From Bacteroidota bacterium (GTDB taxonomy: Bacteria > Bacteroidota > Bacteroidia > Chitinophagales > Chitinophagaceae), in assembly GCA_016868455.1 (NCBI GenBank), contig VGGV01000012.1, positions 1 through 64,000 on the forward strand: a DNA stretch of 64,000 nucleotides. The letters are read 5' to 3'. A program made the position numbers and the translations under genes. Positions within the stretch are counted from its first letter, which is position 1. Every line of letters starts with the position of its first letter. Shown here piece after piece: positions 163-7,096 of the stretch. A model generated the notes under the pieces. It did no database searches and had not been told where the DNA came from. It was given only the letters and a program-made list of their open reading frames with translations.

Positions 163-600
163 TTACTCTGAAAGGTTTATTTCCCTTTCCCACATTAGCT
201 TCGTTCCAAAACCAAGGCTGTTATCTGTAAATTTTATTCTGTTCAAACATACCGTCCATACCTCTCCTGCAATTAATTTTGCCAGCGGATGCTTATTATA
301 ATAGTAAGTCGAAGCACTTTCCGCTAACTTATGATCTTGTGGTAATAGGTTGCCTTCAAACTGTATTCCCTTCACTGTCAGTTTACGGATTTTATCAGGT
401 AAAATCGTTCCGGCTACTAAGGGATTAGCAGATAAAAACCGGGCATGTTTTGTGTCATTTCCTGATTTAAAATATAAAAGAAATTGTTCTGCGTTGAAAG
501 CGTAGAAACAACTAAACGAATATGGATTTTCCTGTTCATCCACGCAACAGACGCTTGCACAGGTTTGCGTTTCAATAAAATCTGTAATTCTTTCTTTCAT
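163..600 (-). CDS. PNPOx-like flavin-binding protein (YhbP/UPF0306-like)
   Basis: A 145-residue protein, starting at the ATG at 600 rather than the GTG just before it. The sequence fits the split-barrel pyridoxamine-5-phosphate-oxidase-like fold, with a CVDEQENPYSFSCFY beta-strand region, the FKSGNDTKHARFL segment and a C-terminal WERE. It most resembles the E. coli YhbP type. Members bind FMN or a related flavin; the substrate is unknown. It lies 37 nt downstream of the hydrolase/radical-SAM fusion gene on the same strand, so the two are probably co-transcribed. Assignment is from sequence character only. Confidence 0.7.
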   Translation of the reverse strand: MKERITDFIETQTCASVCCVDEQENPYSFSCFYAFNAEQFLLYFKSGNDTKHARFLSANPLVAGTILPDKIRKLTVKGIQFEGNLLPQDHKLAESASTYYYNKHPLAKLIAGEVWTVCLNRIKFTDNSLGFGTKLMWEREINLSE

Positions 601-637
601 CACTCTCTATCTGTTTCCCTTTATCTGAGACCTGGCT

Positions 638-2749
638 TCAGGAAACATCTGCAGTTTCAGGTTCCCTGCTTTTAACAATCATTTCTTTTGCTTCCGCTGA
701 GGTGATACTTATATTCAGAAGGCTGCCATACTTCCGGCATTCATCGAGCCGGCAGGAGTTAACCAGTTTCCCTTCAAATACACACATATCCGGACAGTCA
801 TCACACATATCTATCCTTCCATCCGGCATCACATCCGGGGCCTGGATCACGCCAATTCCAATGGCCTTCACTTTGTAAAAAAAACGTAATGGGTTTCCAA
901 GGCAGTAAAGAAGAAATTTTCCAAACGCTTTTCTCACTGTTTTATCAAACAGGCTCATAAAAAAAATCCTCTTTCCCATTTTTATTTTTGGATATACAAG
1001 GTATTTACCAAACCAGCGGTGATAGTAGGTTTGCACCAGCTCCATTGTTTTACTTCCATAAGCGCCGAACACCTTTCCTTTTCTGTTAACAATGAAATTT
1101 CCGATCAGCCATTTAAAAGAAGTATGATCAATTGTCCCCCCTAAATAGGAAGTTGCTTCATAACCCGGAAATTCTTTTTTAATAACAGCATACACTTCTT
1201 TAGATGTAACATTTGCGATTTTCATTTCTTCGGGTAAAATTGAATACCCCAGACTGCCGGGCAATATCGGAATCTTTTGACCCTCTGCATTTCTGAATTC
1301 TATCCCCTCCTGTACCGGAACACCCCTGTATGTAATCAGAGAAATTCCGCCCACCACATCCATATTACCTATAGCCCACCTTAATAAATCCGGCACCTCA
1401 TTCAGATTCTTCCTGGTCACCGTAATTCCAAAATGAGCATACAAGCCAACTGTTTTGCGGAGCATTTTAGCACATTTAAGTCTTAATTCATTCAAGTCAG
1501 TTTCTTTTTTAGGTTTTATTTTTTTGAACTCAGGTCTTGTTTGTGTCACATCAATATGAAAACTCAGACCGGTAAGACCGGCCCTTTTTAATCTGATCAG
1601 TATATCCTCTTTTAAGGCATATCCGTTTGTCAGCATCAGGCTTTTCATTCCGTTATCAGTTATAAACTGGACTATTTCGACAATTTGCGGATGAGTCAAT
1701 GGTTCTCCCCCGGCAATAGAAATGCCGTCACAATTCCTCCACTTCTTAAGAAAAAGTATTTCCTCTTTTACTTTTTCCAGGGGCTTATGGCCTTCTCCCA
1801 TTACCAGGCGATAACAGCCATCACAATGAATATTGCAGATATCGGTTATTTCAACCCATCCGATTGGGTTATCGTTTGTTGACCAGGGTAAACGATAAAG
1901 TTTTCGCTTATCAGGAAATTGATTTACTTGCATATAAAAGGATTTAGTATTAACAGAATAGGTTTGTTTTTCTGAGTCAGCAGAACTGACCGTTTCCGTA
2001 TTTTTGGTCAAATTATTACTCATAAAACTATCAATCACCTTATTAAACTTATCGGGAGTTTCCAGCATAGGTACATGTCCGCATTCATCAATCCAATAAA
2101 GCCTCGCATGAGGAATTAACCTTTTAAAATCTTCTGCTACATGCGGAGGAGTTACAACATCCTGTCGCCCCCATACCAGGCAACAGGGAACCTTAATCTT
2201 ATGCAATTCTTTTTCAAGGTTATTTCGAATGGTAGATTTAGCCAATGATAAAATTTGAAGCGCCTTACGGCTGTTTACAATCGCATATATTTCATCAACC
2301 AGCTCTTTAGAAGCAATCTCCGGATTATAAAAAGTAAGCTCTGTTTTTGACTTTATGTAATCATATTCCTTTCTTTTTGGAAAACTGTATCCCATTCCGT
2401 TCTCAAAAAGACCCGAACTGCCACTTAAAATTATAGATTCAACTTTTTCCGGATGCTTCAAAGTGTACAATAGAGCAATATGGCCGCCCATCGAGTTGCC
2501 AAGTAAATGAAACTTATCTAACTTCAACTCCTCAATAAGTTGGCTCAGATATTCTGCTAAGCAAAATATGGTCACTGAGAATCCCAGGTCATAAAAAGGG
2601 AATACGGGAATAATCACACGATAATTTTCTTTAAGATGATCAGCCAGGTAATTAAAATTCTTCGCCGAACCAAATAATCCATATAAAAGAATGAAGACAT
2701 CCCCACTGCCTTCATCTATATATTTTTTTTCTTTTTGATCAGCCTGCAT
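638..2749 (-). CDS. Alpha/beta-hydrolase fused to a radical SAM protein
   Basis: A single 703-residue reading frame with two enzyme domains. Residues 1-245 form an alpha/beta hydrolase: nucleophile elbow GNSMGG with Ser86, a GRQD acid at Asp197 and the CGH histidine at His225, so the triad looks complete. After a polar linker (about 246-275), residues 275-703 carry a radical SAM core with CNIHCDGC (Cys305, Cys309, Cys312), a GGEPLTHP glycine motif and a Cys-rich C-terminus (MCDDCPDMC, CRLDEC) that could hold an auxiliary cluster. Both domains are usually separate proteins. The Met at 273 could mark the start of a formerly separate gene. It is followed by a PNPOx-like flavoprotein, so a joint redox/lipid-type pathway is possible, but the substrate is unknown. 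Confidence 0.8.
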   Translation of the reverse strand: MQADQKEKKYIDEGSGDVFILLYGLFGSAKNFNYLADHLKENYRVIIPVFPFYDLGFSVTIFCLAEYLSQLIEELKLDKFHLLGNSMGGHIALLYTLKHPEKVESIILSGSSGLFENGMGYSFPKRKEYDYIKSKTELTFYNPEIASKELVDEIYAIVNSRKALQILSLAKSTIRNNLEKELHKIKVPCCLVWGRQDVVTPPHVAEDFKRLIPHARLYWIDECGHVPMLETPDKFNKVIDSFMSNNLTKNTETVSSADSEKQTYSVNTKSFYMQVNQFPDKRKLYRLPWSTNDNPIGWVEITDICNIHCDGCYRLVMGEGHKPLEKVKEEILFLKKWRNCDGISIAGGEPLTHPQIVEIVQFITDNGMKSLMLTNGYALKEDILIRLKRAGLTGLSFHIDVTQTRPEFKKIKPKKETDLNELRLKCAKMLRKTVGLYAHFGITVTRKNLNEVPDLLRWAIGNMDVVGGISLITYRGVPVQEGIEFRNAEGQKIPILPGSLGYSILPEEMKIANVTSKEVYAVIKKEFPGYEATSYLGGTIDHTSFKWLIGNFIVNRKGKVFGAYGSKTMELVQTYYHRWFGKYLVYPKIKMGKRIFFMSLFDKTVRKAFGKFLLYCLGNPLRFFYKVKAIGIGVIQAPDVMPDGRIDMCDDCPDMCVFEGKLVNSCRLDECRKYGSLLNISITSAEAKEMIVKSREPETADVS

Positions 2750-2878
2750 ATCAGCATCAATTATTATTAATTATCTATTTTTTTGCTTTCTGATAATTTT
2801 ACTTTAACCCATTGTGGTTTTCAGCCATTTCTTTTGAGCCACATTATACAAAAGGCTATTGGCAAATATATTAATTAA

Positions 2879-2892
2879 GGATATTTTTGTCC
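2879..2892 (+). promoter_or_regulatory. Candidate promoter box and Rrf2 operator
   Basis: GGATATTTTTGTCC is an imperfect inverted repeat (GGAtA/TgTCC around an A/T centre) and contains a TATTTTTG box at 2882-2889 that matches the Bacteroidota -7 consensus TAnnTTTG. It lies about 140 bp before the Rrf2 gene and could be an autoregulatory site. The promoter match is clear; the operator role is inference. Confidence 0.4.
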
Positions 2893-3027: not shown

Positions 3028-3468
3028 ATGTTCTCCAAAGCAACTGAGTATGCGTTAAGGGCAACTATATATATAGCCAGGAGAAGTGATGAAAAAAACA
3101 AACCCGGTCTTGCGGAAATTGCAAAGGTCATTGATTCTCCCCGGTCATTTACAGCCAAAATATTGCAGCAGTTGACGAAAAATAACAAAATAGTCAGCTC
3201 AGTTCGTGGGCCAAATGGAGGTTTCTTTCTTACTGATAAGGCTAAAAAACTTCCGGTGTATTCTATATTGAAAGCCATGGCCGAAGATGAGGTATTAACG
3301 AAATGTGTTCTTGGCCTCAAGCAATGCTCCGAAACCAAACCATGCCCGATGCATGCACAATACAAACCCCTTAAACAACAATTAATAAAACTGTTTGAAA
3401 CCAAGACTATTCAAGATCTTGCCTCGGAAATAACAAATGGTGACAGTGTCATCGGAAATGGCAAATAA
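3028..3468 (+). CDS. Rrf2-family transcriptional regulator with Fe-S cysteines
   Basis: A 146-residue protein. The N-terminus (FSKATEYALRATIYIAR) and the following winged helix with RGPNGGFFL are typical of Rrf2/IscR/NsrR regulators. Three cysteines, CVLGLKQC and then CPMH, fall where IscR and NsrR bind an iron-sulfur cluster. It probably senses Fe-S status, nitric oxide or redox state. It is divergent from the hydrolase/radical-SAM operon and convergent with nifJ, both cluster-containing systems, so either could be a target (inference). A long ORF antisense to it (2964-3404) was rejected. Confidence 0.9.
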   Translation: MFSKATEYALRATIYIARRSDEKNKPGLAEIAKVIDSPRSFTAKILQQLTKNNKIVSSVRGPNGGFFLTDKAKKLPVYSILKAMAEDEVLTKCVLGLKQCSETKPCPMHAQYKPLKQQLIKLFETKTIQDLASEITNGDSVIGNGK

Positions 3469-3520: not shown

Positions 3521-6500
3521 TCAGAGATTCTTTAATGCTTCAATGGTTTCCCAACGTCTGTGTACTCCTTCATTTGCCAGTGTAAGAAATTCTTCAGCTT
3601 TTTCAGGATAATTATTTTTGATGGTAGCAAACCTGTTCTCATGATAAAGAAATTCATCCAACGCAACAGAGGGTGGTTTGCTATCGAGGCTGAAACGTTG
3701 CCCTTTTTCTTTTAAAGGATTGTAACGGAACAATGGCCAGTAACCGGTTTTCACAGCCAGACTTTGCTGTTCGAGTCCATGACACATATCATATCCATGT
3801 GCAATACAATGGCTATAGGCAATGACGATGGAAGGACCCGGATAAGATTCAGCTTCCAGAATGGTTTTTAATGCATGTACATCATTTGATCCCATAGCAA
3901 TCTGTGCAACATAAGCACTGCCGTGTGCAATGGCCTGCATGGCCAGGTCTTTTTTACCGGTTGTTTTACCCTTTACAGCAAATTTGGCGCTGGCGCCGAT
4001 GGGTGAGGCTTTGGATTTCTGTCCGCCGGTATTGCTGTATACTTCCGTATCCATCACCAGTATGTTTACATTTTCACCGGTGCTCAGCACATGATCCAAT
4101 CCGCTGAAACCAATATCATAGGCCCATCCGTCGCCGCCCACAATCCAGATGGATTTCTTTTCCAGGAATTCCGCGACCTGGTACAACCTCCAGGCATCCT
4201 GTCTTCTCAGATCCCTGAGTCTTTTCTTCAGTTCGTTTACATTCTTACGCTGCTGTATCAGTTCCCCTTCAGTGTTTTCGGCATTGGCCAGAATGGAATC
4301 GGTTAACGCTGAACCTACTTCTTCTCTTAGCTCTTTCAAAAGCCTCAGTGCCATTTCCCGTTTCTTATCGGCTGCCAGTTTTAATCCTAATCCAAACTCT
4401 GCATTATCTTCAAATAATGAATTGGCCCATGCAGGTCCCCTGCCCTCCTCATTACTCGTCCATGGTGTAGTGGGCAGGTTGCCGCCAAAAATGGAAGAAC
4501 AGCCTGTTGCATTCGCCACAATCATTCTGTCGCCAAATAACTGGGTGAGCAGTTTCAGGTAAGGCGTTTCGCCGCAACCGCTGCAGGCACCGGAAAATTC
4601 AAATAAAGGTTCAAGCAGCTGTGAGCCCTTTACAGTTGATTTATTTACCCTTGTACGGTCAATATCCGGAAGAGAAAGGAAGAAGTCCCAGTTTTGCTTT
4701 TCGGTTTCCTTCAGCGGCAGCACATCTTTCATATCAATGGCCTTATGGCCCGGCTCTGTTTTGCTTTCTATGGGGCAAACTTCAGTGCAGAGTTTGCATC
4801 CGGTACAATCTTCCACCGCTACCTGCAGGGTGTACGCTTCCTTATCCTTAATGAACTCTTTACCTACGGGATCAACATGCTTGAAAAAGTCTGGGGCATC
4901 TTTCAAAAACTCCCGGTCATAAACTTTTACCCGTATGGCGGCATGAGGGCAAACAAAATAGCATTTGCCGCATTGCGAGCAAAGTTGAGGGTCCCATACC
5001 GGTACCTGGTCAGCGATATTTCTTTTCTCCCATTTTGTGGTTCCGGAAGGGTAAGTGCCATCCACCGGAAAAGCGCTAACCGGAAGATCATCGCCATCGC
5101 CGGCAATGATCTTTGCCAGGACATTTTGTACAAATTGAGGCGCATCGCCGCTGATGGGCGGTTCAATTTCCCTGCTGCCTGTTTTATAATCATTGTAGTT
5201 TATCCGGAACAGGTTTACCAGCGTTTGATCAACCGCCCGGAAATTTTTCTGTACCACCTCCTCGCCTTTGCGGCCATAAGTCTTCCGGATTGCATTTTTG
5301 ATATATTCAATGGCTTCCTCTTTGGGCAGCACATAAGAAATGGCAAAGAAGCAGGTTTGCAAAATGGCATTGATGCGGGAGCCCATCCCGGTTTCTTTCG
5401 CTACTTTGGAAGCATTGATAACATAAAATTTCAGGTCTTTCTCTATAATTTCTTCCTGAATTTTTTGGGGCAGCTGCTCCCAGATTTCTTCCGGGGGGTA
5501 AGGTGCATTCAATAAAAATACAGCGCCATCCTCCGCATCTTTCAGCACATCATATTTCTTCAGGTAGTTAAAATGATGACAGGCGATAAAGTTAGCCGAA
5601 TTGACCAGGTATGTGGAAAGGATCGGGTGTTTGCTGAAACGCAGATGTGACACTGTCAGTGAACCGGATTTTTTTGAATCATAAACAAAATAACCCTGAA
5701 CATAGTTATCAGTCACCTCTCCAATGATCTTAATCGTATTCTTGTTGGCGCTTACCGTACCATCAGCGCCGAGGCCAAAAAACAGACCGCGGAAAAGATG
5801 TTGTTTCTCCAGGGAAAACTCTTTGTCCCATTTCAGGCTGGTGTGGGTTACATCATCTTCTATCCCCACTGTAAAACCGTTTTTGGGTTTATCATTTTTA
5901 AGTTCATCAAATACCGCCCGGGCCATGGCAGCGTTAAATTCCTTGGATGCCAAACCGTAGCGTCCGCCCGTTATTACCGGCATTTCATTCTTCCACATCA
6001 TATGAAAAGCGCTGACAACATCCATATATAATGGTTCGCCGATAGCTCCCGGTTCTTTGCATCTGTCAAGTACTGCAATTTTTTTCACCGTTGCAGGTAT
6101 AGCTTCTATAAAATGTTTGATGGAAAATGGACGAAACAGGTGAACATTGATATAGCCCACTTTTTCACCACGGTCATTCAGATAATCGGTTACTTCATGC
6201 ACAGGTCCATAACCTGAGCCCATGATGATGATAATTCTTTCGGCATCGGGATGACCATAGTACTCAAACAGTTTGTAAGAACGGCCTGTCAGCTCTTCGA
6301 GCTTTTTCATTGTGTCTTCTACAATTCCCGGAACCTGTCGGTAAAATTTATTGCAGGCTTCCCGGCTCTGGAAAAACACATCCGGGTTTTGTGCTGTACC
6401 TCTTACCAGCGGATGATCAGGATTCAATGCCCGATGACGATGTTCATTCACTGCATGTTCATCGATCATCTTCCGGATTATATCATCCGGTATTACAGCT

Positions 6501-7096
6501 ACCTGGTTCAGTTCATGCGAAGTACGGAAGCCATCGAAAATGTTCAGAAAGGGAACTTTAGCCTTCAGGGTAGCGGCATGTGCAATCATCGCCATATCCA
6601 TAGCCTGTTGCGGGTTGCTGCCAAAGAGCTGGGCAAAACCAGTTGACCTTGCTGCCATCACATCACTGTGATCTCCGAAAATAGACAAGGCATGAGTGGC
6701 TACAGCCCTTGCTGCAATATGAAATACAGCCGGAGTTAGTTCTCCGGCTATCTTGTACATGTTTGGGATCATGAGCAGCAGTCCCTGCGAACAGGTAAAA
6801 GTGGATGCCAGGGCGCCTCCCTGCAAAGCGCCATGAATAGCACCTGCAGCGCCCGCTTCACTTTGCATTTCAATAACCTTCGGTACTTCACCATAAATGT
6901 TTTTCACTTCATTGCTGCTCCATTCATCTGCCCACTCACCCATCGCTGATGAAGGTGTGATGGGATAAATTGCACATACTTCGCTGGTTTTATAAGCGAT
7001 ATGTACCGCTGCTTCATTTCCATCCATGATAGAAAAGACGTTCTTATTTTGAATGGTTGATTTCTTATCCGTAGCCGGATTTATTGTGGTTTCCAT
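3521..7096 (-). CDS. nifJ: Pyruvate:ferredoxin (flavodoxin) oxidoreductase
   Basis: A 1191-residue single-chain enzyme, the usual length of the fused type. It converts pyruvate and CoA to acetyl-CoA and CO2 with reduction of ferredoxin or flavodoxin. Domains run in the expected order: N-terminal pyrimidine-binding domain (YPITPSSAMGEWAD), central transketolase-like and CoA regions, a two-cluster ferredoxin domain (CSQCGKCYFVCP and CTGCKLCTEVCP), then the TPP-binding domain (CSGCGETPY, GGDGWAYDIGFSG). The enzyme is oxygen-sensitive in most organisms, so it suggests anaerobic or microaerobic pyruvate use. It is a single-gene unit with 100 bp of upstream spacer. Confidence 0.97.
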   Translation of the reverse strand: METTINPATDKKSTIQNKNVFSIMDGNEAAVHIAYKTSEVCAIYPITPSSAMGEWADEWSSNEVKNIYGEVPKVIEMQSEAGAAGAIHGALQGGALASTFTCSQGLLLMIPNMYKIAGELTPAVFHIAARAVATHALSIFGDHSDVMAARSTGFAQLFGSNPQQAMDMAMIAHAATLKAKVPFLNIFDGFRTSHELNQVAVIPDDIIRKMIDEHAVNEHRHRALNPDHPLVRGTAQNPDVFFQSREACNKFYRQVPGIVEDTMKKLEELTGRSYKLFEYYGHPDAERIIIIMGSGYGPVHEVTDYLNDRGEKVGYINVHLFRPFSIKHFIEAIPATVKKIAVLDRCKEPGAIGEPLYMDVVSAFHMMWKNEMPVITGGRYGLASKEFNAAMARAVFDELKNDKPKNGFTVGIEDDVTHTSLKWDKEFSLEKQHLFRGLFFGLGADGTVSANKNTIKIIGEVTDNYVQGYFVYDSKKSGSLTVSHLRFSKHPILSTYLVNSANFIACHHFNYLKKYDVLKDAEDGAVFLLNAPYPPEEIWEQLPQKIQEEIIEKDLKFYVINASKVAKETGMGSRINAILQTCFFAISYVLPKEEAIEYIKNAIRKTYGRKGEEVVQKNFRAVDQTLVNLFRINYNDYKTGSREIEPPISGDAPQFVQNVLAKIIAGDGDDLPVSAFPVDGTYPSGTTKWEKRNIADQVPVWDPQLCSQCGKCYFVCPHAAIRVKVYDREFLKDAPDFFKHVDPVGKEFIKDKEAYTLQVAVEDCTGCKLCTEVCPIESKTEPGHKAIDMKDVLPLKETEKQNWDFFLSLPDIDRTRVNKSTVKGSQLLEPLFEFSGACSGCGETPYLKLLTQLFGDRMIVANATGCSSIFGGNLPTTPWTSNEEGRGPAWANSLFEDNAEFGLGLKLAADKKREMALRLLKELREEVGSALTDSILANAENTEGELIQQRKNVNELKKRLRDLRRQDAWRLYQVAEFLEKKSIWIVGGDGWAYDIGFSGLDHVLSTGENVNILVMDTEVYSNTGGQKSKASPIGASAKFAVKGKTTGKKDLAMQAIAHGSAYVAQIAMGSNDVHALKTILEAESYPGPSIVIAYSHCIAHGYDMCHGLEQQSLAVKTGYWPLFRYNPLKEKGQRFSLDSKPPSVALDEFLYHENRFATIKNNYPEKAEEFLTLANEGVHRRWETIEALKNL

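Follow-up and report, generated by a model that had tools for sequence, protein, structure and literature searches.

Why should an alpha/beta hydrolase and a radical SAM (rSAM) enzyme be read from a single frame? The window, by which we mean the whole 64,000-nucleotide stretch of DNA analysed here, carries such a gene at 638..2749 on the minus strand, where one uninterrupted ORF of 703 codons (703 aa) runs through a hydrolase, a linker and an rSAM enzyme. Two known enzyme kinds are joined here in a combination that we saw once. The locus raises the question of whether the two enzymes act together, and under what conditions they are made, or whether they came to share a frame by chance or by error.

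Two enzymes in one reading frame

The hydrolase half (residues 1-248; 2006..2749, minus strand) is connected by a linker (residues 249-272; 1934..2005, minus strand) to the radical SAM half, which has its native start at M273 (638..1933, minus strand). By score, both domains are beyond chance: Abhydrolase_1 (PF00561) reached 88 bits against a Pfam cut-off of 25.8, and Radical_SAM (PF04055) 61.6 bits against 29.5. A preliminary description had proposed this fused frame, with a Ser86/Asp197/His225 triad, a Cys305/309/312 motif and further cysteines at the C-terminus, and all of it was borne out. S86 lies in GNSMGG, D197 in WGRQD and H225 in CGH; the CX3CX2C motif at 305-312 is formed by C305, C309 and C312 in CNIHCDGC; and the C-terminus follows the order M648-C649-x2-C652-x3-C656-x9-C666-x4-C671. 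The hydrolase half has cysteines of its own at 63, 189, 190 and 223.

Both halves are complete, with their catalytic residues kept. Ten aligned stand-alone relatives of the hydrolase end within ~12 residues of residue 248, and a stand-alone relative of the rSAM enzyme begins MQENYFPDKRKLYRLPW where the fused protein reads MQVNQFPDKRKLYRLPW from M273, leaving ~24 residues between the hydrolase and the rSAM start. A structure model of the whole protein was built from an alignment of 24 rows (the window's protein with relatives from 4 of 15 rSAM loci and 19 of 61 hydrolase loci), in which 22 of the 23 relatives lay on the correct half and the tail of one row (L100) strayed; a mixed alignment of 39 rows had been discarded because its hydrolase rows fell onto the rSAM half. 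Residues 249-321 of the model have pLDDT below 50 and the pTM is 0.50, values at which the arrangement of the domains is not readable.

The best solved relative of the hydrolase half is MGS-MChE2 (PDB 5JD6, E 6e-76), which we take to be an esterase, and for which the open-access literature yielded no paper. MGS-MChE2 and the alpha/beta hydrolase common in Bacteroidota share their fold and triad with the hydrolase half, which differs from them in belonging to a separate clade of second copies, in being fused, and in having YG rather than HG near residue 23; it matches the common hydrolase copy of its own genome at 52%. The top NCBIfam model, OlsI (NF052614), an ornithine-lipid O-acyltransferase of alpha/beta fold, hints at acyl chemistry, although its 84.1 bits do not reach the cut-off of 385. 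These sequence relatives make an esterase or acyl-transfer reaction the natural guess for this half.

Distribution and origin of the fusion

In searches with the whole protein, which scored the best 3 (phylum) or best 5 (family) candidates per genome, matches of at least E 1e-20 turned up in 126 of the 296 genomes sampled from the phylum and in 187 of the 195 from the family. Among the matches listed from these genomes only the window's own covered both halves, and the two-domain order was found in no other genome searched. A few hydrolase-half matches extend to about residue 300, with internal stops, and some lie in stop-to-stop frames of 388-590 aa. The rSAM half alone was matched in 2 of 58 near relatives, namely the window's genome and G501 (91%). 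Scanning public genome contigs yielded 76 loci, of which 15 carry the rSAM half and 61 the hydrolase half; tblastn with both halves against every locus found them together only in the five loci that stem from the window's own gene, and no collected locus outside the window's genome held both even as neighbours. The open-access portion of the literature likewise offered no alpha/beta hydrolase-radical SAM fusion besides one Trichinella case. These DUF726 proteins (PMC11878206) belong to an alpha/beta hydrolase family and are listed with PF04055 as an extra domain, but they come from an animal and carry TRAM and fucosyltransferase domains, making a different combination.

The closest relative of the rSAM half is a stand-alone gene of 431 aa (91%) in the same genus, lacking the hydrolase; it was met both as L033 and in G501, which are the same locus of a 'Sphingobacteriales bacterium' groundwater assembly and were counted once. 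There the order is pyruvate:ferredoxin/flavodoxin oxidoreductase (PFOR), divergent Rrf2, rSAM, a quinol-type NO reductase (a COX1 domain and a NorB cytochrome c-like domain) and a DGC/GNAT protein, and in the window it is PFOR, divergent Rrf2, hydrolase-rSAM and PNPOx. Comparing the two orders places the hydrolase between the promoter and the rSAM start. In a maximum-likelihood tree of 32 rows (31 of them different), the fused hydrolase half clusters (100/100) with its closest relatives (65-68%), five stand-alone hydrolases that are second copies within the same bacterial family, and this clade stands apart from the common hydrolase, which the window's genome encodes on another contig. The idea that these paralogues share the neighbourhood of the rSAM gene was rejected, as none of their five loci (5-14 kb) holds an rSAM relative; two of the five, both from one genus, have a U32/ferredoxin-like pair (named by eye) nearby. 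Given the unfused rSAM relative at 91% and a hydrolase that groups with stand-alone copies, we infer from the sequences either that in one lineage an incoming hydrolase copy settled between promoter and rSAM start, or that a missed base hides a stop.

An entry of this kind could have produced a fusion by accident, if the hydrolase copy arrived in the rSAM operon and its stop was lost, leaving two independent halves that share only their expression; in that case M273 may still serve as a start for the rSAM enzyme by itself. Such an accident fits with the rSAM enzyme being encoded on its own in each of the 44 other loci examined, with the hydrolase occupying an ORF of its own (209-304 aa) at every hydrolase locus listed, and with the halves not being even neighbours in any locus from another genome, as it does with the kept native rSAM start codon and the disorder modelled for the linker. 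The hydrolase half has nevertheless kept its triad and 65-68% identity to its paralogues, which argues that it is under constraint. We regard a fortuitous fusion as a serious possibility that, on balance, we doubt.

Family, fold and context of the radical SAM half

The rSAM half is a member of a Bacteroidota family for which the scanned libraries contain no dedicated model. Across 45 rows (the window's protein and 44 relatives, with one weak match, G280 at E 3e-21, excluded from the counts), C305 and C309 are each kept in 44 and C312 in 45, and M648, C649, C652 and C666 are kept in every row. C656 occurs in 16 of the 45 and C671 in 13, which gives the close subfamily two cysteines beyond those of the wide family.

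A model of the rSAM half alone (mf64f83cefdd3; 16 rows, mean pLDDT 77.3, pTM 0.82) aligned best to GDGT-MAS, with Z 23.0 over 299 residues at 3.4 A (model residues 5-405). A second GDGT-MAS entry followed at Z 20.6, and the first other protein was MoaA at Z 15.9. This ranking is a re-alignment of the 1000 best PDB chains of Foldseek, whose own ranking starts with BlsE and viperin and has no GDGT-MAS among the best 50 listed. Profile searches of the PDB also put GDGT-MAS first, over the core only (E 4e-12 and 2e-13), and a wider profile from 42 of the 45 rows (without L035, L043 and L168) did not extend the Tes match past that core. Against the Tes model NF045702 the rSAM half scored 53.3-54.4 bits, core only and far from the cut-off of 450, and in the rSAM family the NCBIfam models for a tungsten-cofactor maturase, NirJ2 and HpnH scored about as well as Tes. 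In G501, 11 kb away from its rSAM gene, a second radical SAM protein (G501:C5:239734-240276, in L195) scored slightly better against the Tes model, at 64.9 bits.

The archaeal enzyme GDGT-MAS/Tes (MJ0619; PDB 7TOL, 7TOM) and the rSAM half resemble each other in the CX3CX2C core and in a fold match that includes the C-terminal region. The rSAM half also has a set of C-terminal cysteines preceded by an invariant Met, which may correspond to the C-terminal cluster of Tes with its labile Met ligand, Met439. They differ in that the window's protein comes from a bacterium and has an N-terminal esterase-type domain instead of the rubredoxin and [4Fe-4S]N; because no cysteine lies between M273 and C305, the N-terminal rubredoxin (CX2CX20CX2H) and [4Fe-4S]N of Tes have no counterpart here. 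One report describes the N-terminal rubredoxin and auxiliary cluster of GDGT-MAS, places bacterial Tes homologues in organisms not known to make biphytanyl chains, and leaves the reactions of these homologues open (PMC9433317); another proposes that they make branched tetraethers (PMC8941075). The fold link of the modelled rSAM half to lipid chemistry is suggestive. Lipid chemistry, which the preliminary description had offered as an example, is a reasonable guess, since the best alignment of the rSAM model is with an enzyme that couples lipid tails.

Five of the 44 rSAM loci (L033, L146, L150, L155 and L160) have nitrate-reductase, NO-reductase or NO-repair genes around them, and a related Rrf2 gene is present in five (L033, L047, L146, L155 and L160). 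In the remaining 39 no nitrate or NO gene was recognised by eye within about six ORFs, some of the loci being short, and inspection by eye revealed among them neither a recurring lipid-synthesis gene nor a common theme. The names NarG, NarH, NarJ, NarK, NorC, MoaC, MoaD, MoaE and MoeB were given by eye, and NarI, RIC (ScdA_N/hemerythrin), qNOR, the NorB-like COX1 domain, U32, DHODH-like, ferredoxin and PFOR were checked with Pfam, which identified NarI and RIC in L160. The rSAM genes of L150, L155 and L160 sit inside clusters of nitrate-reductase and molybdenum-cofactor-type genes with hemerythrin or RIC genes (partly named by eye).

These surroundings could fit a different role for the rSAM half, as a maturase for an anaerobic-respiration enzyme (a molybdenum/tungsten enzyme, haem or quinone) and not as a lipid enzyme, with the esterase half either incidental or trimming an ester of that cofactor. 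Besides the five loci in nitrate/NO clusters, the rSAM gene of L033 also adjoins molybdenum-cofactor-type genes (named by eye), and the NCBIfam models for the tungsten-cofactor oxidoreductase maturase and for NirJ2 roughly equal or exceed Tes in score. Those model matches are, however, partial, confined to the rSAM core and far below their cut-offs, GDGT-MAS leads MoaA by 7 Z units in the fold re-alignment, and most rSAM loci show no respiration genes. We consider a maturase unlikely.

Promoter region, neighbours and a proposed mechanism

Upstream of the fused gene lies an operator-like dyad, GGACAAAAATATCC (2879..2892), ~130 bp from the start of the fused gene and from that of a divergent gene for an Rrf2-family regulator (3028..3468, plus strand); as it is midway between the two, it may serve Rrf2 itself. 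The -7 box has the consensus TAnnTTTG, which is resembled by TATATTTG, oriented to the fused gene at 2863..2870 on the minus strand. The regulator reached 84.4 bits on PF02082 against a cut-off of 30 and has three clustered cysteines, C93, C100 and C106, in agreement with the divergent Fe-S type Rrf2 described earlier, and it plausibly controls the fused gene. NsrR and IscR are alike in having an Rrf2 domain, three cysteines and a position beside NO-reductase-type promoters, but neither model was reached (50 of 182 and 65 of 208 bits). The dyad AAGGAYAWWWWTRTCCTT is unlike the NsrR consensus operator gATGyAT-N5-ATrCATc (PMC1274295), and with 50.1 against 182 bits on the model a canonical NsrR was rejected.

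The dyad GGAYAWWWWTRTCC occurs at 6 sites in 14 same-genus loci (230,680 bp), against a first-order random mean of 0.05 for a pattern that was derived from those loci themselves. All six sites precede the fused gene, the separate rSAM gene, qNOR, norC or one uncharacterized protein. In L033, GGATAAAATTGTCC lies in the interval from Rrf2 to rSAM and GGATAAAAATATCC immediately ahead of the NO reductase ORF; in L185 (G488) the dyad stands before norC/norB and before a 610-aa protein, and in L190 (G498) before a relative of the 610-aa protein, with a near match before a qNOR/Rrf2 pair. It is absent at the norC of L184 and at the uncharacterized protein of L183 and L189, and the pattern has no occurrence in the 61 hydrolase loci (917 kb) or the 43 other rSAM loci (635 kb). 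An 18-base pattern had 4 exact positions in 24 genomes, all at NO-reductase (NOR) genes or the uncharacterized protein, and the window's site and the G501 rSAM site are each one base off it. At one mismatch the pattern was not enriched genome-wide (64 hits against 75 for the reversed control in the 24 genomes). Six such one-mismatch sites were checked elsewhere; one of them, in L223 (G497), which was chosen for a nearby NorB match and is outside the set from which the pattern was derived, lies directly before a norC-norB-Rrf2 row, and the other five lie within ORFs.

The Rrf2 protein of that row (L223:1323-3609; G497:C78) is very like the window's. The uncharacterized protein is a conserved one of 605-616 aa containing FHIPVMGLAYTIDSP (L185:12115-13944, L190:10635-12452 and L189:4764-6614), with the dyad in front in L185 and L190 and absent in L183 and L189; its L185 copy had no Pfam match at E 1e-4.

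Since the dyad in this genus otherwise fronts NO-reductase genes, an unfused rSAM gene and the uncharacterized protein, the fused gene is probably responsive to NO or anoxia, and we regard its regulatory link to NO as moderately supported. The window's genome itself gave no qNOR match and encodes a NorB-like protein on another contig (44%). In the open-access portion of the literature we found no relevant radical SAM enzyme in nar clusters and no pairing of Rrf2 with a radical SAM enzyme.

Two further genes flank this arrangement. PFOR (3521..7096, minus strand), a possible electron source, is part of a PFOR-Rrf2-rSAM arrangement common to the window and L033. Downstream, a PNPOx/YhbP-like ORF (163..603, minus strand) begins 34 nt (GTG) or 37 nt (ATG) after the fused gene, the latter being the spacing first described. 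PNPOx_N (PF01243) scored 22.6 against a Pfam cut-off of 28.1, and the best name, YhbP-like (NF002900), also stays below its cut-off (109 against 176 bits). The PNPOx gene is present in 9 of 15 same-genus and same-order loci and in 8 of those 9 is beside a U32-family gene and a ferredoxin of 73-78 aa, with PFOR in the same stretch in five of the eight; none of the 15 loci holds a relative of the hydrolase or rSAM half. Across the 58 near relatives, PFOR occurs in 17 and a PNPOx-like gene in 12. Its membership of a conserved U32/ferredoxin island means that adjacency to the fused gene says little, and from this neighbourhood we rejected the pathway partnership that the preliminary description had proposed for PNPOx. 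The same-genus cassette of U32 gene, ferredoxin and PNPOx/YhbP-like gene (L180, L181, L182, L183, L185, L189, L191 and L192) lies in several loci behind PFOR and a dihydroorotate-dehydrogenase-like gene.

The reading we tentatively put first is a tethered pair of an esterase and a lipid-type rSAM enzyme behind an Rrf2-linked promoter that is switched by NO or anoxia. Comparison shows that, the joint excepted, a carboxylesterase-type hydrolase copy came in frame between this promoter and a pre-existing rSAM gene. Because the promoter appears to be shared with a small NO-reductase regulon, to judge by the common dyad, the protein would be made when NO or anoxia switches the Fe-S regulator Rrf2. 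Ferredoxin or flavodoxin reduced by PFOR could then feed low-potential electrons to the rSAM half, which by its fold similarity may abstract hydrogen from an unactivated carbon in a lipid-like substrate; as in tetraether lipid synthase, its C-terminal Fe-S cluster might hold the intermediate or couple it. In the weakest step, the hydrolase half would act on substrates of the same class, either ahead of the radical reaction or following it, and remove or transfer an acyl group held in ester linkage; it is in this sense that we infer a joint function for the fused halves.

The joint itself is known from one genome, a draft of 64 contigs in which the gene lies ~640 bases from the contig end, and an error of a single base near the end of the hydrolase could have made two adjacent genes read as one. 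Both other frames meet stops within a few codons of the hydrolase end, adjoining the linker, so that one missed base could create the joint, and with a chance of ~16% that the 24 linker codons stay open (P ~0.16, from linker composition) this keeps a missed base a live alternative. Relatives do encode the halves separately, as the preliminary description had allowed for an assembly artefact, but no stop stands between the halves here: the frame stays open across the entire linker and runs on in the rSAM frame, and because the gene order agrees with that of L033 there is no sign of a chimeric contig. An artefact is quite improbable in our estimation.

A Bacteroidota rSAM family with a predicted Tes-like fold, joined once to a putative esterase and placed behind a promoter region linked to NO reductases, offers a concrete, expressible candidate for finding the substrate class, and would tie membrane chemistry to nitrosative stress. 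The most specific reading, to which we give little credence, is of a bacterial Tes-like enzyme with a built-in esterase that is induced by NO or anoxia and cross-links or remodels the tails of ester lipids in Bacteroidota membranes, its esterase half freeing or re-loading the acyl chain on which the radical half acts. Should the joint prove fortuitous, the rSAM family and the dyad regulon would remain testable items.
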